Of a DNA stretch of 64,000 nt, positions 38,465-51,361 are shown in pieces. Origin of the DNA: Acidobacteriota bacterium (GTDB lineage Bacteria; Acidobacteriota; Terriglobia; Bryobacterales; Bryobacteraceae); the NCBI GenBank assembly GCA_025354885.1, contig JANXLY010000056.1:29135-93134 (forward strand). The letters run 5' to 3'. A program made the position numbers and the translations under genes. How positions within the stretch are numbered: the first letter of the stretch is position 1; each line of letters starts with the position of its first letter. The notes beneath the pieces were generated by a model. The model was not told where the DNA came from. It did not search any database and saw only the letters and a program-made list of their open reading frames with translations.

Positions 38465-39211
38465 ATGAATCAAGAACAGATCCGGGATTTATTTGAGAAG
38501 GTGCGTGCGGGCGAATTGAGTCCGGATGCGGCGACCGAGCAATTAAAACACCTCCCTTTTGAGGACATCGACTTTGCGAAGATCGATCATCATCGCGCTC
38601 TGCGGCACGGGATGCCGGAAGTTATTTTTGGCCAGGGCAAGACTCCCGACCAGATCGCGCTGATTGCAGAGCGGCTCGCCTCGCGCGGCCAGAATGTTCT
38701 TGCCACACGAGTCGATGCCTCCTCCGCAGCTGCCATAATTGAACGCCTTCCAGAAGCTGTATACCACGCGATGAGCCGCTTGTTGATCATCAGGCGTGAA
38801 GTGAAAATGCAGGGCAAAGGAAAGATCCTTGTGATGTGCGCAGGTACGGCGGACCTGCCGGTCGCAGAAGAAGCCCGGCTCACTGCAGAGTTGATGGGCA
38901 ATGAAGTCGTGTCCGTAGCCGACGTGGGCGTGGCTGGGATCCACCGCCTGCTCGAGCAGCGCGAAAAATTATGGTCAGCACGCGTAATTATCTGCTGCGC
39001 CGGCATGGAAGCCGCCTTGCCAAGTGCCGTCGGTGGCCTTGTGGGCTGCCCCGTCATCGGTGTTCCGACCAGCGTCGGATACGGCGCTCATTTCAACGGA
39101 TTAGCTTCTTTGCTATCCATGTTGAACTCCTGCGCGTCTAACGTTACGACTGTGAATATCGACAATGGCTTTGGCGCCGCATACGTTGCGACGCTGATCA
39201 ACCGGATTTAG
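38465..39211 (+). CDS. larB: Nickel pincer cofactor biosynthesis protein LarB
   Basis: FAKIDHHRALRHGMPEVIFGQGKTPDQI; ILVMCAGTADLPVAEEARLTAELMG; GMEAALPSAVGGLVGCPVIGVPTSVGYGAHFNGLASLLSMLNSCASNVTTVNIDNGFGAAYVATLINR. Confidence 0.95.
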   Translation: MNQEQIRDLFEKVRAGELSPDAATEQLKHLPFEDIDFAKIDHHRALRHGMPEVIFGQGKTPDQIALIAERLASRGQNVLATRVDASSAAAIIERLPEAVYHAMSRLLIIRREVKMQGKGKILVMCAGTADLPVAEEARLTAELMGNEVVSVADVGVAGIHRLLEQREKLWSARVIICCAGMEAALPSAVGGLVGCPVIGVPTSVGYGAHFNGLASLLSMLNSCASNVTTVNIDNGFGAAYVATLINRI

Positions 39212-39216
39212 GAACT

Positions 39217-40227
39217 ATGCGACAGATTGTTTTTTTATGGATTTGCCAGGCTGTGTTCGCTCAGCAAGCGCCGCCACCACCGTCTTCCCTGCAGATGACT
39301 CCCATTGAAAAGCTCAGCATCCCCAAATCAGAAGAGAGTCTTGAGGATGCCGACCAGCCACAGGCTGCAAGCCTGTCGGGCAACGGCTTATTCGGAGTAA
39401 GGGATAAAGAGAAGCGGATCAGTGCTGCTCAGGCGTCACTGAAAAAGTCCCCTGACGATCCGGAATTGCGCCTGAGTCTCGGGCGATTGCAGGATTCCTT
39501 TTTGCGCTTCAATGAGTCCATTGGCACCTACACTAATGGCGTCGAAAAGTTCCCCAACGACTATCGCTTCCTCCGGATGCGCGGACAGCGCTACCTTTCG
39601 GTGCGTAAATTTGAACAGGGCCTCGAGGACCTGCAGAAGGCCGCAAAGATGGTTCCTAATTCTTTTGACGCAGCTTACTATCTGGGGCTCGCTTACTATT
39701 TCAACGGAGATCATGCCAAAGCCGCTGCCGAATTCTGGCGCTGCGAAGATCAGATGAAGCGGCCCCTCAAAGAGCAGGCTGATCTGAAAGGAGGGCGAAG
39801 CTGTGATGGTTTGCGCGAAGAAGAAAATGGTCGCATCCCCTTGCAATATTGGCGCTACCTTGCCCTGCGGCGCGCAGGCTTACAGGCCGAAGCGAAAAAG
39901 TATCTGGATGAGCAGGTCAGTGGTTTGCTGACCATCACGACTACCAAGCCTTTTTATGATGCGTTGCTGTTTTTCAAAGGGGTGAAAGAGATCAACGAGA
40001 TGATGGCCGGGGCGAACGAAGGGTCCCGTGATTTCCTGACGCGTTCGAGTGGTGTCGCAACCTTTCTGTTTACAGAAGGCGAGCGCGCCAAAGCATGTGG
40101 GATCTGGGCGCGCAACGCGATGGATCAAAACTGGGATCACCTCGGCGTGATCAATTCCGAGAGTGAATACTGGCAAAACAGCAGGGCTGCATGTGCATTA
40201 TATGGCACAACAGCGCCTCCCAAGTAA
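39217..40227 (+). CDS. TPR-repeat secreted protein
   Basis: Signal peptide; helical repeat units (FNESIGTYTNGVEKFPNDYRFLRMRGQRYLSVRKFEQGLEDLQKAAKMVPNSFDAAYYLGLAYYFNGDHAKAAAEF). Confidence 0.75.
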   Translation: MRQIVFLWICQAVFAQQAPPPPSSLQMTPIEKLSIPKSEESLEDADQPQAASLSGNGLFGVRDKEKRISAAQASLKKSPDDPELRLSLGRLQDSFLRFNESIGTYTNGVEKFPNDYRFLRMRGQRYLSVRKFEQGLEDLQKAAKMVPNSFDAAYYLGLAYYFNGDHAKAAAEFWRCEDQMKRPLKEQADLKGGRSCDGLREEENGRIPLQYWRYLALRRAGLQAEAKKYLDEQVSGLLTITTTKPFYDALLFFKGVKEINEMMAGANEGSRDFLTRSSGVATFLFTEGERAKACGIWARNAMDQNWDHLGVINSESEYWQNSRAACALYGTTAPPK

Positions 40228-40341: not shown

Positions 40342-43300
40342 TTGAGGCTCTTCTGGATATTGACTGCCCTCCTCTCACTTACTCCCAGAGGACAGGCGCA
40401 AAGCCTCCAAGCCTCGGCATCAGTGATCTGCCGTGACGAGGCAGGTCAAGCCATTAGTTCTGCACGTGTCGTTCTTACGAACGAAAGTACAGGACTAAGC
40501 CGGGTCGCCACCACCTCAAAGGACGGCAGCTTCGAGGCCCGATTCCTTCCGCTGGGCCGCTATCGCATTGAAGCTTCGAAGCCTGGTTTCCGTACTGAAA
40601 CAAAAAGCGGCCTGGAACTGAGTGTCGGCAGTAAGGCAGCATTCGAATTCATACTCCGTATCAGTGCCGTCGAAGAGCGCATCGAAGTAGTCGCTACGCT
40701 CTCGCAAGTTGAAACCACTAACCCGCTCCTCTCGACACTGATCGATTCCAGAAAGATCAGCGACCTTCCCCTCAACGGCCGAGACTTGGTACAGCTCATG
40801 CAACTGCAGCCCGGAGTGCAGTCGGCCCGTACAGATTCCGGTGACATCGTGACAGGCAGCAAGGGCACTCGAATTACGGTTTCAGGCTCTCGCCCTTCAA
40901 CCAACGTGTTCATGCTCGACGGCACGGTGATCAACAACCTCGGGAATCGAGTTGCTGGTGGAGCCACGGGAAGTCTTACCGGGGTAGAGACAGTCAGGGA
41001 ATTTCGCGCCTACACCAATAGCTACAGCGCTGAGTTTAGCCGCGCCGCAGGCGGAGCCTTTAACATCGTGACCAAGTCGGGTACGAATGCCCTGCACGGT
41101 TCCGCTTTTGAGTTTCTCCGCAATGATAATCTCCATGCCCGTAATTTCTTCGATGACCAAAGGCCTGAGTTTCGGCGCAATCAGTTCGGTGGCTCAATCG
41201 GCGGCCCCATAGTCAAAGACCGCACTTTCTTCTTTGGCAGCTATGAAGGGTTTCGCGAACAGGCAGGTCAGACGATCATTCGTACAGTCCCTGATGCCGA
41301 CGCTCGCCTAGGCCGCATCAACGGGGCATTGGTTGGCGTCGCTGCATCGGTGCGGCCCTATCTCGCCCTCTGGCCTCAACCAAGTTCAGATCCTGTTCCG
41401 GGTGACGGCTCAGCACTCTACACAACGGTTTTCTCCCGTCCCGTCACGGAGAATTTCTTCAATGCGCGGCTCGATCATCAGATCTCATCAACCGACTCAC
41501 TCTTCGCTCGTTACACCATCTCGGATTCGGCGCAGACCTTCCTCAGTGACGAAGCTTTTCCGCAATATCCCAATCGCCTCACGAACAGACCACAATTTCT
41601 TACCTTGCAGGAAACGAAAATTTTGTCTTCCTTCGCAATCAATGAGCTTCGCCTCGGCTTCGCGCGATCTAACCCTTACGAGCAGTTGCTCGATCCATCC
41701 ATCCGGCCCGATCTCGCCTTCATCCCTGGAGAGTCCCTGGGCGTCATTACCATCGGCGGATTTGATATTTTTGGTCCTGATCGCAACGTCCCTCGTCGGC
41801 TCACGCAGAACAGTTTTCAATTCAGTGATCAGTTGGCTATCACTCGGCAGCGCCATTCTTTCACGGCAGGTCTGCAACTGGAGCGCCTGCAGTACAACGT
41901 CATCTCAGCCAGCCAGTTGCGGGGCGAATTTCGCTTCGCCAGCCTTACGGATTTCTTGCGCGCCAGCGTCAGTACCTTCGAAGGCATCCTGCCGGGCTCT
42001 AAGGATTTCACTCGTGGTTATCGCCAAACCCTGGCCGGTTGGTATGTTCAGGATGCGATCAAAGTGTCACGCCGACTTACTGTAAATCTGGGCCTCCGCC
42101 ACGAATTCGTCACGGTCCCTACGGAACAAAATGGGCGCATGAATAACCTCCACAACTTTATGGATCCGCGCATCACAGTCGGCCCGCCTTTCACCACAGC
42201 AAAGGCCAACTTTGCTCCGCGAGCCGGCTTTGCACTCGATCCAACTGGCACTGGCAAAACTGCGATTCGCGGCGGCATTGGATTTTTCTTTGTGCCCTTT
42301 GTGGCCAATCAATGGTGGAACTCGATTGTGCGCCTGCCTCCCTTCACAGTCACCGCACGCGCTACCGGGGCTGTCGCGCCATTTCCAGCGCCCGTCAACG
42401 GGCTTGCCGCTCTGGGGCGCGAGTCGATCTCTGCGATTGAATACGAGCACCAGCAGCCTTACATGCTCCACTTCAACTTCAATGTTCAGCGCGCAGTGAC
42501 GCGCTCTACAATCCTCACCGTCGCGTATGTCGGCAGCCGCGGAATTCATCTGGGACGTGAATCCGATTTCAATATCGGCAGCCCGGGCAATCCTGTTCGT
42601 CGCAACCCCAACTTTAGTCGAATCCGCTTCCGCACCTGGGATGCGCGCTCCTTCTACAACTCTCTTCAAACCAGCCTCCAACGTCACTTTCGGGGCGGTG
42701 CGCAGTTTCAACTTTCCTACACTCTGGCCAAGTCCGTTGACGACGCTTCGGGCGAACTGGGGCGTATTGAATTCAACAATGGTCAGGCCCGTACATCCGA
42801 TCCTTTGGATCGCTTGCGGGATCGAGGTCTGTCGAGCTTTGACATCCGTCAGAACCTGGTCGCCAATTCCACCTGGGATCTGCCCTGGCACCGCGCCCGT
42901 GGCTGGCAGCTCAACGGAATTCTCACCTTGAGCAGCGGTGCGCCTTTCACCCCCATTATCATTTCCGATCTCGATCAGGACGGCACCGACGACAACGAAC
43001 AGCGCCCTAACCTCAAACCGGGTCGATCAAAAAATCCGGTACTTGGTCGGCCGGAGCACTGGTTTGACGTTTCGGCATTCGAATCGATAGCTCGCGGTAC
43101 AAGAGGCAATCTGGGGCGCAACACGATTTCAGGTCCCGGTCTCGCCATGCTCGATTTGAGTGTTGCCCGTACTTTCACCCTTCCCAAATGGGAGCGTGCG
43201 CGGCTTCAATTTCGCATCGAATCTTTCAACGCCCTGAATCGGGCCAACTTCTCTACGCCGCCTCGATCCAATCTCGAAATCTTCAGCGAGGCCGGGCCAA

Positions 43301-43389
43301 CCGCCACTCCCCTTCCAAACGCAGGACGCATCAATTCGACAGTGACCTCTGCTCGCCAAAGCCAACTGGCTGTCAGGCTGGTGTTCTGA
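40342..43389 (+). CDS. TonB-dependent receptor, Oar-like
   Basis: Signal peptide; carboxypeptidase-regulatory-like N-terminus; plug ISDLPLNGRDLVQLMQLQPGV..NVFMLDGTVINN; C-terminal LAVRLVF. TTG start. Confidence 0.88.
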   Translation: MRLFWILTALLSLTPRGQAQSLQASASVICRDEAGQAISSARVVLTNESTGLSRVATTSKDGSFEARFLPLGRYRIEASKPGFRTETKSGLELSVGSKAAFEFILRISAVEERIEVVATLSQVETTNPLLSTLIDSRKISDLPLNGRDLVQLMQLQPGVQSARTDSGDIVTGSKGTRITVSGSRPSTNVFMLDGTVINNLGNRVAGGATGSLTGVETVREFRAYTNSYSAEFSRAAGGAFNIVTKSGTNALHGSAFEFLRNDNLHARNFFDDQRPEFRRNQFGGSIGGPIVKDRTFFFGSYEGFREQAGQTIIRTVPDADARLGRINGALVGVAASVRPYLALWPQPSSDPVPGDGSALYTTVFSRPVTENFFNARLDHQISSTDSLFARYTISDSAQTFLSDEAFPQYPNRLTNRPQFLTLQETKILSSFAINELRLGFARSNPYEQLLDPSIRPDLAFIPGESLGVITIGGFDIFGPDRNVPRRLTQNSFQFSDQLAITRQRHSFTAGLQLERLQYNVISASQLRGEFRFASLTDFLRASVSTFEGILPGSKDFTRGYRQTLAGWYVQDAIKVSRRLTVNLGLRHEFVTVPTEQNGRMNNLHNFMDPRITVGPPFTTAKANFAPRAGFALDPTGTGKTAIRGGIGFFFVPFVANQWWNSIVRLPPFTVTARATGAVAPFPAPVNGLAALGRESISAIEYEHQQPYMLHFNFNVQRAVTRSTILTVAYVGSRGIHLGRESDFNIGSPGNPVRRNPNFSRIRFRTWDARSFYNSLQTSLQRHFRGGAQFQLSYTLAKSVDDASGELGRIEFNNGQARTSDPLDRLRDRGLSSFDIRQNLVANSTWDLPWHRARGWQLNGILTLSSGAPFTPIIISDLDQDGTDDNEQRPNLKPGRSKNPVLGRPEHWFDVSAFESIARGTRGNLGRNTISGPGLAMLDLSVARTFTLPKWERARLQFRIESFNALNRANFSTPPRSNLEIFSEAGPTATPLPNAGRINSTVTSARQSQLAVRLVF

Positions 43390-44997
43390 ATGGGTTTCCT
43401 GAATTCAATCAAAATGTACGCCCGCTATGCGGCCGGGCTTCCGCACTTCCTTCGCAATCCGATCAGTCTCGCCGATGCGGAAGAATTGATCCGCCTCGGG
43501 ATGGAACAGCGAGAAGAGAATTTTCTTCGACTGATGCAGCGCGGTGTACTCGGCTTTCCACTGAGCCCCTTTGCGCGGATGCTTCGGCTCGCCCGATGCG
43601 AGATGGGAGATCTTCGAAATATGCTTCGGGATCACGGTTTGACCGGTACGCTTCGTTCCCTGCATGACGCCGGAGTCTACGTCACTTTTGAGGAGTTCAA
43701 AGGACGGCAGCCCATAGTGCGACATGGAGAATCCTTCGAGGTCTCGGTTGCTGATTTCAACAATCCATTCCTGCGTAAGTCCTATCAGGCTGAATCGGGC
43801 GGAAGTACTGGGGCCGGTTCGCGAATCGGTCATGACCTCGAGCATCTGGCGATTCAGTCAGCACATCTCATGCTGCTCTTCGACGCACACAAAGCCCTCG
43901 ATATGCCCTTGGGTGTCTGGCGCGGAGTTCTGCCCGATGGCAGCGGCTTGAATAACATGCTCCGTGGTGCGCGCCATGGCAGAACTCCCTCAAAGTGGTT
44001 TTCGCCGAACCAGGCAGGCGAAAAGAAACCTGAAATGCGCTTTCAGGTAGGAACCTATGGAACGGTGCTCGTCAGTCATCTTGCAGGACGTCCTCTGCCT
44101 TGGCCGCAAATGGTTCCCATCGATCAGGCGATCACGGTGGCCCGCTGGATGGCTGATGCCATTCAGAGTCATGGATCCTGCATGTTGAGCGCCCCTGTCA
44201 GTAGGGCTCTTCGCGTGTGCATCGCCGCGAAAGAAGCAGGCTTGGACCTCACCGGCGCAGTTTTCCAAATTGCCGGTGAGCCGCCATCGCCGGCGAAGGT
44301 TGCGGGGATCACCGCGACTGGCGCCCGGTGCTTTACAACTTATGGGTTCGCTGAGGGCGGGCGAGTCGCCATCGGCTGCGTAAATCCGATTTCTTCGAAT
44401 GACCTGCACATCCTTAAAGATGCCTTTGAAGTGATTCCCTTCGAGCGCCAGGTGCCTGGCGCAGAACGAGTGGTCAGCGCCTTGGGCATCACTTCGCTGC
44501 TGCTGACCGCACCGCAGATTTTGTTGAATTCCGAAATGGACGATTACGGTGTTGTCGAGGAGAGAAGTTGTGGCTGCCCACTTGAGCGACTGGGCTACCA
44601 TCAGCACGTGCGCGATATTCATAGCTATCGCAAACTGACGGGCGAAGGAGTTACGCTCGTAGGCAGCGACATGATCGATGTGCTGGAACGAGTGCTCCCC
44701 TCGCGCTTTGGCGGCTCGCCGCTGGATTACCAACTCATGGAAGAAGAAGACGAGCAGGGATTCACTCGAATGAGTCTCATCGTGAGCCCAAAGATTGAGG
44801 TTGCCAACGAGGACGAAATCGTAGAGGCCATCCTCGCTGAACTCGAAGCCTCAAGTATCATGGCGGGACGTGCGAAAGCAATCTGGGCTCAGGCCGGAAC
44901 ACTTAAGATCAAGCGGCAGGAGCCGACCTGGACAGGCCGCGGCAAGTTGATGCCGCTGCATCTGATTCGACAGCGATCCGGCAAGGTGAGTGAATGA
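43390..44997 (+). CDS. Adenylate-forming enzyme-like protein (LuxE/PaaK-like acyl-activating)
   Basis: P-loop-like ESGGSTGAGSRIGHD; FTTYGFAEGGRVAIGC; overall layout of LuxE/phenylacetate-CoA ligase-like proteins. ATG directly after TonB stop. Confidence 0.65.
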   Translation: MGFLNSIKMYARYAAGLPHFLRNPISLADAEELIRLGMEQREENFLRLMQRGVLGFPLSPFARMLRLARCEMGDLRNMLRDHGLTGTLRSLHDAGVYVTFEEFKGRQPIVRHGESFEVSVADFNNPFLRKSYQAESGGSTGAGSRIGHDLEHLAIQSAHLMLLFDAHKALDMPLGVWRGVLPDGSGLNNMLRGARHGRTPSKWFSPNQAGEKKPEMRFQVGTYGTVLVSHLAGRPLPWPQMVPIDQAITVARWMADAIQSHGSCMLSAPVSRALRVCIAAKEAGLDLTGAVFQIAGEPPSPAKVAGITATGARCFTTYGFAEGGRVAIGCVNPISSNDLHILKDAFEVIPFERQVPGAERVVSALGITSLLLTAPQILLNSEMDDYGVVEERSCGCPLERLGYHQHVRDIHSYRKLTGEGVTLVGSDMIDVLERVLPSRFGGSPLDYQLMEEEDEQGFTRMSLIVSPKIEVANEDEIVEAILAELEASSIMAGRAKAIWAQAGTLKIKRQEPTWTGRGKLMPLHLIRQRSGKVSE

Positions 44998-46067
44998 ACC
45001 CTCAGTCAACTAGGCGCAATTTGCTCTCATCCGTGGCACTTCTGTCCGCCTGTACGCGGCGATTTGCTGCAACTGGTTGCGAGGCGCTGAAGAATCAGAA
45101 GATACGTTGGCTGGTACCCTACCCCCCCGGCGGCTCCTACGACGTCTTTTCGAGACTCCTGGAATTGCCTCTTGAAAAGGCATTGGGCGCAGAGATTCTG
45201 ATTGCGAACGAGGCCGGTGGCGGCGGGCTGATCGGCGCTTCAAAGCTTCGCGATGCGGTCCCGGATGGTCGCACCCTTGGCGTTGTGAATGCTCCCGGGC
45301 TCATGTCCGGTTCGCTCGCTGGCGAAGCTGCAACTCCCAATCCGGCGCGCGACTTCACTGTCATTGGCCGACTCTCCCGGGTGCGAAGTGCAATCGTCAC
45401 CAGTGCAAGTTCTCCTTTGAAGACCGTGGACGATCTCATCCTTCGGCAAAGCACCAAACCCCTATTGTTTGGCGTCACTGGTGCTTCCAGCAACAACCTC
45501 CTCTGTATTGCCGCTACCACTTCGCTTCTTGGCCTCAACATGGAATATGTCGCCGGATATGCAGGGAGCCGCGAAGAGTTGCTTGCTGTAATGCGCGGCG
45601 AAGTCGATCTCATTTCTGCCAACTACGAGACACTGCAGGACGGAGTCGAATCTGGCGAACTTCGCGTATTGCTCCAGCTCACGGACACGCCAGTCTCGTC
45701 TCACCCGGCTCTCGCCACATCCGGCGTTCTGGGCGGCAGTGAAGGTTGGGCTGCCCGCCGTTCGCAACAAACCGGAAGAAGTGTTGCGCAGGCTGTGGAT
45801 GAAGCTCACGCGCTCGCAGAAGCAATTGGTGCCGGAATCATTGTCGTTGCGCCGAAGCAGCTCTCCACGGAACTCACCAGCTGTTTAAGGTCTAACTTCG
45901 ATATCGCCGTGAAGGACCAAAGATTTCTTGATGGCGTGAGAGCTGCCCGTCGATCTCTTGATTTGACCAACGGCGCTACGACACAAGCGGAATTGAAGGT
46001 CGCAGAAACCCAGTTCAGTCGATTTGCTCCGCTTGTCCGCGCCGCCATTGCCAGGATCCGCAAATAG
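44994..46067 (+). CDS. Bug-family (TctC-like) tripartite tricarboxylate transporter substrate-binding protein
   Basis: IRWLVPYPPGGSYDVFSRLLELPLEKALGAEILIANEAGGGGLIGASKLRDAVPDG; ATGA overlap with upstream gene. Confidence 0.85.
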   Translation: MNPQSTRRNLLSSVALLSACTRRFAATGCEALKNQKIRWLVPYPPGGSYDVFSRLLELPLEKALGAEILIANEAGGGGLIGASKLRDAVPDGRTLGVVNAPGLMSGSLAGEAATPNPARDFTVIGRLSRVRSAIVTSASSPLKTVDDLILRQSTKPLLFGVTGASSNNLLCIAATTSLLGLNMEYVAGYAGSREELLAVMRGEVDLISANYETLQDGVESGELRVLLQLTDTPVSSHPALATSGVLGGSEGWAARRSQQTGRSVAQAVDEAHALAEAIGAGIIVVAPKQLSTELTSCLRSNFDIAVKDQRFLDGVRAARRSLDLTNGATTQAELKVAETQFSRFAPLVRAAIARIRK

Positions 46068-47575
46068 TGCCAGTTTTGGATGCGGCAGCGCAGGGCTTCT
46101 GGTTGGTCTTCTCATGGCCAAACATTCTCTATCCAACCATCGCAACCCTGGCTGCGATGATCTTCGCATTCCTGCCTGGACTAAGCGGCGTCACGCTGAT
46201 GGCACTGGCGATTTCACTTACCTTTTCCTGGGATCCTCTCCACATCATGCTGATCTTTGGGGCATTCACCGGCGGGTCGACCTTTATGGGCTCGATTACG
46301 GCGATCCTCTTCAATATCCCGGGTACTGCGCCCAGTGCTGCTACGCTGCTCGACGGTCATCCCATGGCGAAACAAGGCAAGGCAATGACGGCTATTGGTT
46401 GCGCTGCGTCTTCTTCCGCTCTGGGCTCTACGATTGGTGTTCTGGTCTTGATTCTCCTCTTGCCGGTTTTGCGCAGCCTGATTCTCAGCTTCGGGCCAGC
46501 GGAATTTCTTATGCTCTCGATCTGGGGCCTTGCCACCATCGCATCCCTCACCGGACGCTCGTTGCTGAAGGGCCTGACGATGGCAGGCATCGGCCTCCTG
46601 CTCGCGTTCGTCGGCCTGGATCGGCGCACTGCCGAACCACGCTTCACTCTCGGGATCGACCAGTTGCAGGATGGGCTCAACGTCATTCCGGTCTTCCTCG
46701 GCGTCTTCGCCATCGCTCAGATGCTCGAGCTTTCTGCCCGCAAAGATTGCGTCGTTTCAGAAGGTGTTGTGCTGTCTGGCAACTTATGGGATGGCGTACT
46801 GGCCCCATTCCAGCACTTCGGGCTGCTATTGCGCAGTTCCCTGATTGGCTCGGTTGTCGGCATGATCCCAGCGGTTGGGGGTACCGTGGCCAGCTTCCTC
46901 GCTTATGGTCAGGCAGTAGCAACCTCGCGAGACCGCAGCGGCTTTGGACACGGAGACATCAGGGGCGTAATTGCTCCAGAAGCGGCGCACGATGCAAAGG
47001 ATGGTGGTTCGCTGGCTCCAACCTTGGCTTTTGGCATCCCCGGAAGCGAAGGTACAGCAGTCCTTCTTGCGGCCCTCACATTGCATGGCTTCGTGCCGGG
47101 GCCGTCTCTGCTCAAAGAGCAACTGCCGATGGTGTTTGCTTTAATCTGGTCGCTCTTCTTCTCCAATTGGCTCACTTCGCTGCTCGGCCTTGCAATCGCT
47201 CGCCCGCTCGCCCGAATCTCGTCGCTGCCAACCGGACAACTGGCACCGATGATCCTCATCTTCGCCGTACTCGGCGCCTACATGCAGCAAGGTCGATTCA
47301 GTGATGTTGTCATTGCCTTCCTGTTCGGTTGGGCCGGATACCATCTCAAGCAACACGGCTGGCCTTTGGTGCCGATGGTTACGGCCCTGGTTTTGGGCCC
47401 GCTTTTTGAAGCCAACCTGCACCTCACAACTGCGCTTACCCAGGTCGGCCGAATCCATTTCTTCGCCCGCCCGATCGTGTGGTTTCTGTTCATCTCAATG
47501 ATTCTGATGTTTGCCTGGCCAGGATTGCGCTCTTTGCCCGCGCGAGCGCGTGGCGTTGGGAGCCGACCATCATGA
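46067..47575 (+). CDS. tctA: Tripartite tricarboxylate transporter permease TctA
   Basis: FLPGLSGVTLMALAISLTF..GSTFMGSITAILFNIPGTAPSAATLLDGHPMAKQGKA; SLAPTLAFGIPGSEGTAVLLAAL; GTG start in TAGTG overlap. Confidence 0.92.
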   Translation: MPVLDAAAQGFWLVFSWPNILYPTIATLAAMIFAFLPGLSGVTLMALAISLTFSWDPLHIMLIFGAFTGGSTFMGSITAILFNIPGTAPSAATLLDGHPMAKQGKAMTAIGCAASSSALGSTIGVLVLILLLPVLRSLILSFGPAEFLMLSIWGLATIASLTGRSLLKGLTMAGIGLLLAFVGLDRRTAEPRFTLGIDQLQDGLNVIPVFLGVFAIAQMLELSARKDCVVSEGVVLSGNLWDGVLAPFQHFGLLLRSSLIGSVVGMIPAVGGTVASFLAYGQAVATSRDRSGFGHGDIRGVIAPEAAHDAKDGGSLAPTLAFGIPGSEGTAVLLAALTLHGFVPGPSLLKEQLPMVFALIWSLFFSNWLTSLLGLAIARPLARISSLPTGQLAPMILIFAVLGAYMQQGRFSDVVIAFLFGWAGYHLKQHGWPLVPMVTALVLGPLFEANLHLTTALTQVGRIHFFARPIVWFLFISMILMFAWPGLRSLPARARGVGSRPS

Positions 47576-47967
47576 TTGTGCTCGCTGCTCTGGTCCTCTT
47601 TTGCGGAGCAATAGGATTGCTTTCTCTCCAACTCAGTCCAACGGCCGGACACGTGCCAGCAGTTGTGGCACTTCTGACGCTGATGCCGGTTCTGCTTCAG
47701 GCGAGACTGGATTTCCTTGGTCGAGGAGTCGCAAGATACGAACCAGCAGATACTGCCCTGCTGTCCTACCTGTTGCTTCCTGTCCTGCTCTATCTAGCTG
47801 GCTTCTTCGTCGCGCTGCCACTCTATGCTGGCTGGTGCTTGCGAAGTCGTCCTGTCTTCGCAGTGGTTTCAACGGCGCTAGTTCTGGTAATGCTTGTACT
47901 GCTGCATCAGCATATTGCAGTCTATTCCGGTCTGGTCTGGGGCTTGATGGCCAGCGCGGCGGTGTAG
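47572..47967 (+). CDS. TctB-like small subunit of tripartite tricarboxylate transporter
   Basis: Four hydrophobic segments; ATGA overlap with tctA; position expected for TctB. Confidence 0.65.
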   Translation: MIVLAALVLFCGAIGLLSLQLSPTAGHVPAVVALLTLMPVLLQARLDFLGRGVARYEPADTALLSYLLLPVLLYLAGFFVALPLYAGWCLRSRPVFAVVSTALVLVMLVLLHQHIAVYSGLVWGLMASAAV

Positions 47968-48728
47968 TAAGCGGTCAGGTTGCGTGTTGGCCAACGGCCG
48001 AAGAGTTCAAAGGCAGCCATCAGGCGCAAGAGACGGCGCAACACTTGTGGTGACCGACCTCTCAGAATGTGGCAAACCGGTACGACCATTGTGCGTGGCG
48101 CATGCATGATCGCAGCGGTATGCTCAGTCTTGAACCCACACTGGCTGAGCAGTCTTTGCAAGCCCGCTGGGGTAACAGACTCGCCGACATAATAGGGCAC
48201 CAGGCCTAAACGGTTCAGAAACGCAAATGGCAAGGCATGCCGCAAGGCAAGGATCGGATTCGCCATATTGTCGAAGGTCACCAGTAGACGGCCCCCGGGC
48301 TTCAGTACTCGATAGAGCTCTTCAACAGAGCTCACTATGTCGGCGTTAGAGGGGAAATGATCCAGGGTTGAATTCGAGACGACGAGATCAAAGGAGTTGT
48401 CCTCATAAGGTAAGCAGCGTACATCGGCCGTGACGAAGTGCCCACCGGGATTCTTTGTAGCAGCCTGAGCGACCACGGCGCAGGAGAAATCGATTGCGTG
48501 AACTTCGCGGGCGTTCAATGCCAGTGCTGCAACCAGGCCAGTGCCAGCTGATTCATCAAACAGGTCGGTCTTGAGGGCAAGGCCCACCTTGCTGTCGCCA
48601 ATCCAGTCTGCGATGAGCCGCAGATGCAGCTGATCACAGAAGACACGCCAAGGGTCTCCACTGCCATTCTCGAAGAAGCTGGCCAATGTCTGATCCCAAT
48701 AGTCTGTGCCGAGGTTACGCTCGGTCAT
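47922..48728 (-). CDS. Class I SAM-dependent methyltransferase
   Basis: VHAIDFSCAVVAQAATKNPGGHFVTADVRCLPYEDNSFDLVVSNSTLDHF..ELYRVLKPGGRLLVTFDN. Start at MTERNLG (48728) or 48803. Confidence 0.85.
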   Translation of the reverse strand: MTERNLGTDYWDQTLASFFENGSGDPWRVFCDQLHLRLIADWIGDSKVGLALKTDLFDESAGTGLVAALALNAREVHAIDFSCAVVAQAATKNPGGHFVTADVRCLPYEDNSFDLVVSNSTLDHFPSNADIVSSVEELYRVLKPGGRLLVTFDNMANPILALRHALPFAFLNRLGLVPYYVGESVTPAGLQRLLSQCGFKTEHTAAIMHAPRTMVVPVCHILRGRSPQVLRRLLRLMAAFELFGRWPTRNLTAYYTAALAIKPQTRPE

Positions 48729-48778
48729 TGGGGCAAGCGGAAGGTTTCGTGGAGTGATAACGAGGAAGCAACATTCAG

Positions 48779-51361
48779 ATGATATTCGAGCGAAAGCCAG
48801 CAACTCGGACTCTCCTGATTATATTGCCCAAGCCGGTGCGAGCAGATCGCTGGCAAGAAGGCACGGCGAAGGGTACAGTGTGGAATGGCTCAGGATTCCA
48901 TTTGAAGCGACTGTCAGTGATTGTTCCCGTTCACGGGGCTCCGGAACTTTTGGCTGCATGCTTATCTGCACTGCAGCAATCTTCGCAGTTGCCCGACGAA
49001 GTAATCGTGGTCGATGATGGCTCGCCTGAGGACTCCGCTCCCCGAATTGCGGAGATCGCCAAGGAGGCAGGAGCGCGTTTGATTCGACAGCCGCAGGCTG
49101 GACCGGGCGCAGCGCGCAACTACGGAGCCAAAGAGGCCTCTGGCGCGGTGTTGCTGTTTGTGGATGCTGATGTCAACGTACACGTTGAGACCTTGGGCCA
49201 GATTGTTGCAGCTTTCGATTCGGACGTTGATCTTGCAGCGGTCTTTGGTTCTTACGATGATCGTCCTTTAGCCGGCACCATCGTCAGTGACTATCGCAAC
49301 CTGCTGCATCACTTTGTGCACCAGAATTCCCGCCGACATGCTCATACATTTTGGGCTGGTTGCGGAGCGATTCGCCGCGAGGCCTTTTTTGCGGCTGGGG
49401 GATTTGATGCGTCGTTTGGGCGGCCCAGCATCGAAGATGTGGAACTTGGGCTGCGCCTGTCCGCACAGGGTCGGCGCATTGAATTGCGGCCGGAAATCCA
49501 GTGCACGCATGCTAAACGCTGGACCCTGCGCTCGTTCTTCCTGACCGATCTGTTCGAGCGTGCCATGCCTTGGACCGAGATGTTGTTTACGCGTCAAGCT
49601 GCCTTGCCGGCAGATTTGAACTTCGGCTTGGCACAGCGACTTAGCGTGCCGTTGGCAGTGCTGCTGCTGATCAGCCTGATTCTGACAGCCCGTCTTCCAC
49701 TTTTGGCAGGCACTGCATCAGCTGTTTGCATCGGCTTACTGGCGATGCTAAACAGGCCTTTTCTTGGATTTCTGGCGCGCTTGCGTGGCCTGCAGTTTGC
49801 GCTCGCCGCTTTCCCAATGCATGTTTTGCACCTGCTTGCGAGTGGGCTCGGTTTTGCTTTGGGGTGCTTACGGATCTGGCATCGATTGGATCCGAAGATC
49901 TGGATTGCAGCCTCGCTGCTTGCGACGGTGATCCTGGGCTGGCAGCTTGCCAGCGGAACATATCAAGCGGACTTCGGTGGACATCCCGATGAGCCAGGAC
50001 ACTATGTGACCGGAGTCATGGTGAGCGAGTATCTGCAAAACCCGACATTCAACCCGATGCACTTTGCGGAGCAGTATTATCTGCACTATCCCAAAGTTTG
50101 CATCGGACATTGGCCACCGTTTTTCTATCTGGTGCAAGGGCTTTGGTATGTATGTTTTGGAGTGAGTAGGGCGGCCGCTCTCGGGCTTGAAATGCTGTTG
50201 AGTTTTATGCTGGCTCTCGGAGTCTATGCGTTAGCCAGGCGCTATGCGTCCTTTAGTGCAGCGCTGGGATCGGCGCTGATGCTGGTGGTGACGCTGCCGT
50301 TTCAGGCCTCTCTCGATTTGGTGATGGCTGAGTCTTGCACTGCCGTTCTCGTGCTTGCTGCTACCGTCGCATTTGCGCGTTATCTTGAGCAGCCCGGGCT
50401 CATGGCGAGCCAGGCATTTGGGGTGTGCGCGGCGCTGGCGCTGTTGGCAAAAGGCAGCGCCTGTCCACTGATCCTTTTGCCTCTGATGTCGATCGGAATC
50501 GCCCGTCGATTTGAAGTACTCAAGCGTGTGGATTTTTGGTTGGCGGCTTTGCCTGTACTGATTTTGGCGGTGCCCTGGTATGTCTTCGCGAAGGGCTTTG
50601 CCAGCCCCAACCAGACTTCGCTGCGGCTGATGGAGGGTACTTGGGGGCCGTGGATGGATTACGGGATTCCTCTATTGCTGCTGTCGTTAGCGGGTAGCCT
50701 GCTGCTGCCGAAGCGCGACCCTTACATTGCTTCTCTGGCGGGATTGGTACTTGCCTTCGGACTGGCTCCACTCGGTGTGAATGCGTTTCAGGAGAGCCGT
50801 CATCTGCTGCCGGCTGCCGGAGCAGCTGCGGTGCTAATGGTGGGATGCTGGTCGCGCTTGAATCGACCAGGTCTGGCGGTGGCATTGAGTCTTGCGCTTA
50901 GCTGGTGGTTGACGCCCCGGTTTGTAGTGTATCCAGACGAGAAATTTCGTAGCTGGGCGCAAACTGTCAATCTCGCGGGGCCCATTCTTGTTTCTGGTTC
51001 TGCTACGGAAGAGGGTGCTGTTGTGACGGCGCTTGTAGAACGACAGCCGAATCCGAAACAGAGCATCCTTCGCGCTTCGCGCGTGCTGGCTAACAGCACC
51101 TGGAACGGGACGCGCTACCAGATGCTGGTTCAGGATGAGGCACAAACACGAGCACTACTGGAAGAACACGGCATCACGATGCTGTTGCAGTCGGTGAGCG
51201 CGAAAGCCCGCCATGATGAACTGCTTGCCAAGGCCACAAAGTCCTGGCCGCGCAGAGACTACGATGGATACGTGGTTGCCTTGAATCCTCACCCGGCTCA
51301 AGGCCGATCGCTTTCGATCGAACAAAGACGGCTGGGACGAAAGATCATTCTCGACCCTTAA
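48779..51361 (+). CDS. Family 2 glycosyltransferase fused to a polytopic membrane glycosyltransferase (ArnT/GT39-like)
   Basis: [68 protein letters not shown]-terminal multi-TM with [23 protein letters not shown]. True start probably 48878 (GTG) or 48902 (TTG). Confidence 0.82.

Follow-up and report, generated by a model that had tools for sequence, protein, structure and literature searches.

The window (the whole 64,000-nucleotide stretch analyzed here) contains a real and conserved five-gene operon that combines an outer-membrane receptor, a predicted PaaK-like adenylating enzyme (ADE), and a tripartite tricarboxylate transporter (TTT). The novelty lies less in the operon than in the unnamed family of ADE and in the recurrent pairing of this family with different importers. 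The source is a 6.6-Mb draft genome (G000), and the operon is located on its contig C44, where five co-directional ORFs occupy positions 40342-47967 of the window on the forward strand, with every junction being either 0 bp or overlapping. The receptor (40342-43389, 1015 aa) has a TTG start and a signal-peptide-like N terminus, and the ATG of ADE (43390-44997, 535 aa) stands straight after its TGA. The TctC/Bug solute-binding protein (44994-46067) overlaps ADE by ATGA, the large membrane subunit TctA (46067-47575, GTG start) overlaps TctC by TAGTG, and the small membrane subunit TctB (47572-47967, 131 aa) overlaps TctA by ATGA. All ORFs and stop/start overlaps of the tightly joined cluster described in an earlier note on this DNA were thus verified. 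The five genes are probably co-transcribed; a promoter and terminator scan yielded fewer sites than in shuffled sequences. Outside the operon, a LarB gene (nickel pincer cofactor synthesis, 38465-39208) and a TPR protein gene (39217-40227) are located upstream, and a convergent methyltransferase-like frame (47922-48803) shares approximately 45 bp with the 3' end of tctB.

The same gene set was found in three other genera, i.e., four counting the window, in agreement with a conserved neighborhood. In G356, another genus of the same family, the receptor, ADE, TctC, and TctA genes lie in this order on contig C122, which ends inside TctA, and contig C270 opens with the missing part of TctA, after which a TctB-like frame was recognized by eye. 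The junctions in G356 are of the same kind as in the window (TGATG, ATGA, and TAGTG), and therefore the zero-gap and overlapping junctions are not due to chance. In a more distant member of Acidobacteriota (locus L031 and genome G835, whose ADEs are 100% identical), all five genes are present and follow the same order, but three junctions contain spacers of approximately 340-540 bp. Two of these spacers hold MITE-like inserts (L031:9047-9245 and L031:10423-10680) flanked by inverted GTAACTACCCAGCC-like ends. In G492, the set is split: contig C38 carries the receptor and ADE, and contig C22 carries TctA preceded by the final 82 residues of TctC, both parts being cut by contig ends. Identities to the window proteins run in parallel for the receptor, ADE, and TctA (66, 67, and 69% in G356; 59, 56, and 63% in L031), whereas TctC is less conserved (46 and 42%, respectively); the receptor of G492, likewise adjoining ADE, is 63% identical, and the TctA copies of L031 and G492 are 63-70% identical to that of the window.

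TctA is scarce in the family (12/237 genomes), and TTT was therefore rejected as a general family feature. TctA of the window type is confined within the family to G000, G356, and G492, all three of which have this ADE. The remaining full-length TctAs (G173, G397, G532, G466, G185, and G389) are 35-37% relatives of the TctA from a Syntrophaceae locus, L044; in the four genomes with fetched surroundings, no match to ADE or the receptor was found near these genes. The closest partial ADE (67% identity) belongs to G468, a genome without TctA, in which no receptor was found in the 2.4 kb upstream.

Single-sequence searches of Pfam, NCBIfam, and PDB with the window ADE gave nothing significant, the curated phenylacetate-CoA ligase models of NCBIfam and Pfam included, and only three of the 69 ADE members gave an AMP-binding match (best E = 0.014). 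A profile of these 69 relatives, in turn, retrieved PaaK-type ligases (9s3l, 1.3e-10; 4r1l, 5.9e-10; 6siw, 1.7e-7). The AlphaFold (AF2) model of ADE (pLDDT 88.8, pTM 0.87) has the overall ANL fold with a C-terminal domain, and its top Foldseek match is PaaK1 (2y27; E = 9e-18, 528 alignment columns, TM 0.47/0.57). The best solved folds (PaaK1, BT_0428, and PaaK2) share about 16% identity with it at a TM of 0.4-0.54 on the query, these moderate values probably reflecting, in part, domains that sit differently. The catalytic residues, whose lack would have refuted the reading of the earlier note, are intact: the P-loop SGGSTG; Glu322 of YGxxE (the A5 Glu), present in 64/69 members and replaced by Asp in the rest; Asp385 (the A7 Asp), in 69/69; and Lys519 (the A10 Lys), in 68/69; the motifs were assigned by eye, except for the region covered by the profile alignment. 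In addition, C330, H340, C394, and C396 align with Cys/His/Cys/Cys of 9s3l. On the modeled structure, ADE is a PaaK-fold adenylate-forming enzyme of an unnamed family. The earlier designation "LuxE/PaaK-like" is thus retained in its PaaK part, by profile, fold, and motifs, and dropped in its LuxE part, since no match to the Pfam LuxE model was obtained.

A total of 94 ADE loci from several phyla were gathered by a scan of genome contigs and by searches of relatives. In 37 of them an importer gene lies on the strand of ADE at a distance of up to 3 kb, namely one for an NMT1-type ABC system (23 loci), an Nramp-like protein (7), TTT (4), DASS (2), or TAXI-TRAP (1); these context labels were assigned by BLAST against seed proteins, and the counts are biased downward by short contigs, on which partners can be missed. 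Importer genes are concentrated near ADE (37/351 within 2 kb vs. 3/330 beyond 4 kb; Fisher 1.3e-8), and so are receptor genes (30/351 vs. 4/330; Fisher 5e-6), both values overstating independence because the loci are related. The local enrichment led us to reject sheer receptor abundance as the cause of receptor adjacency. The association between ADE and importers extends beyond TTT, which accounts for a small part of it, the NMT1-type ABC systems being the commonest partners. The proximity of ADE to importers and receptors thus recurs, but is not unique to TTT.

In the ADE tree, the proteins of the window, G356, and L031 form one clade (SH-aLRT 99) nested among ADEs of Deltaproteobacteria and Chloroflexota that have ABC, TAXI-TRAP, or glycan neighbors, and therefore the importer partner changed several times. 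A separate TTT adjoins ADE in L044, with the genes in C-B-A order and a TctA just 32% identical to that of the window. The NMT1 binding proteins show weak matches to THI5, taurine, sulfonate, and nitrate binders, which give no hint of the substrate. Nramp-family proteins adjoin ADE in L053 (10420-11814) as well as in L080, L085, L091, and L102. The usual metal motif of Nramp proteins is of the DPGN type; the L053 protein seems to read GPSD at this place, so its cargo may not be a metal. In another Syntrophaceae locus (L034:10001-11617), a second ADE copy, broken into two frames, adjoins nitroreductase, PLP-enzyme, and HMGL-like genes and an NMT1 ABC importer.

The receptor matches the barrel family OMP_b-brl_4 (PF25183, E = 4.7e-176), as expected for a TonB-dependent receptor, and CarboxypepD_reg (PF13620, 1.3e-16). 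A plug-domain Pfam match is absent, and the genome holds 10 TonB_C matches; the receptor is presumably TonB-dependent. At least 37 OMP_b-brl_4 receptors were scored in this genome, with 124 first-look candidates, vs. one TctA and one ADE.

Two of the transporter subunits were assigned directly, TctC by PF03401 (3.4e-20), its PDB matches being Bug proteins, and TctA by PF01970 (1.3e-119). The window TctB has no Pfam match itself and was named after its L031 counterpart, which is 32% identical and matches PF07331 at 3.4e-8. The unusual subunit order was confirmed, being C-A-B here as opposed to the described tctCBA order (PMC5812351). The N terminus of TctC carries RR and a lipobox, with R7, R8, and C20 invariant in G356 and L031. 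TctC of G356 and many NMT1 binding proteins encoded in the parallel operons likewise begin with an RR resembling a twin-arginine motif and a Cys resembling that of a lipobox, and 16 of 25 NMT1 proteins match a simple lipobox pattern; these features were read by pattern rather than with a signal-peptide predictor. TctC is, judging from this N terminus, apparently a lipoprotein.

We propose, with about an even chance of being right, that the operon serves the uptake of a small organic acid and its adenylation by ADE. The receptor would bring the acid, or its conjugate, into the periplasm, where TctC would capture it; TctA and TctB would import it by ion symport, and ADE, presumably receiving it from the importer, would adenylate its carboxylate. 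The resulting acyl-AMP would then probably pass its acyl group to CoA or straight to a different acceptor. The "complete path" of the earlier note is borne out in its parts, i.e., the receptor and TctC/A/B genes and the intact ADE motifs, with the function standing as a prediction. The presence of one ADE family beside five importer types suggests that "import and activate" is a module that can be reused. More tentatively, ADE may represent an undescribed PaaK-like family that defines such a portable module for a common class of environmental acids, with TTT, NMT1-type ABC, TAXI-TRAP, DASS, or Nramp-like partners depending on the lineage, and with Acidobacteriota perhaps adding a dedicated receptor.

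Counting against uptake and activation, 57 of the 94 loci, some of them short contigs, have no recognised importer within 3 kb. In one separate clade (L045, L052, L056, L057, and L118-L122), the neighbors of ADE are instead hemB (ALAD), hemA (glutamyl-tRNA reductase), and a UbiD-type gene; a FemAB-like gene is often located upstream. Also counting against this reading are the many ADE genes beside glycosyltransferases, the ADE of G468 mentioned above, and the absence of any gene for acyl-CoA catabolism from the operon. The main rival explanation is that ADE activates an acid, imported or made in the cell, for attachment to a polysaccharide, the importers just supplying the decorating acid. Though unlikely in our estimate, it is serious because many ADE genes sit among glycosyltransferases, and it stays so because of the importer-less loci, the hem/UbiD clade, and G468 with neither receptor nor TctA. 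Three Deltaproteobacteria-type loci (L032, L033, and L035) share the order GT2, amine-oxidase-like, ADE, sulfotransferase, GT4; GT4 adjoins ADE in L047 and L083; and Wzx-type flippases occur near ADE in L039, L050, L051, and L077 and, in L031, immediately downstream of TctB. On the other hand, the window operon contains no glycan gene, and the NMT1-ABC/receptor loci of the same family mostly lack nearby glycosyltransferases.

It is rather improbable that ADE is a CoA ligase trapping a carbon source, with the genes for its further metabolism located elsewhere: the PaaK-type fold and motifs, as well as TAXI-TRAP and an amidohydrolase adjoining ADE in L037, are consistent with catabolism, but across the importer loci no conserved dehydrogenase, thiolase, decarboxylase, or oxygenase stands beside ADE. 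Least probable is a chance neighborhood, or a block acquired without a shared substrate, since, despite the great abundance of receptor genes, the overlapping junctions are kept across genera, five importer classes are involved, and the local enrichment is strong.

These Acidobacteriota have dozens to more than 100 receptors of the OMP_b-brl_4 type per genome, for which, to our knowledge, almost no substrates have been established. The operon links one such receptor to TctC and a catalytically intact-looking ADE, two soluble proteins amenable to ligand screening, and therefore a substrate could be assigned to both the receptor and the unnamed ADE family.

A literature search, with most subscription journals beyond its reach, found no account of such a receptor-ADE-TTT operon. 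The known TTT systems TctCBA of Salmonella and BctCBA of Bordetella (PMC5812351) likewise combine TctC/Bug, TctA, and TctB, whereas the window operon differs from them by its C-A-B order, short TctB, TctC with RR and a lipobox, and inclusion of a receptor and ADE. According to the part of its description available, DdvT of Sphingobium SYK-6 is a TonB-dependent receptor for the uptake of a lignin-derived aromatic compound, and thus offers a parallel for an outer-membrane receptor reserved for a small aromatic acid (PMC6874591); that part does not mention an operon that also includes a TTT or an adenylating enzyme, and the likeness is one of description rather than sequence. Coupling of outer-membrane entry with a TTT is also a feature of the alginate oligosaccharide system of Vibrio sp. 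C42, which, in the portion of the account available, has a porin instead of a TonB-type receptor and no adenylating enzyme (PMC13390454). Finally, ADE differs from the PaaK-type ligases in its low identity (about 15%), approximately 100 additional residues, extra helical N terminus, and lack of a curated model match, but shares with PaaK1 (2y27), BT_0428 (4r1m), NatL2 (6siy/6tm4), and ClxA (9s45) the predicted fold, the P-loop, the Glu/Asp/Lys positions, and the Cys/His/Cys/Cys site.
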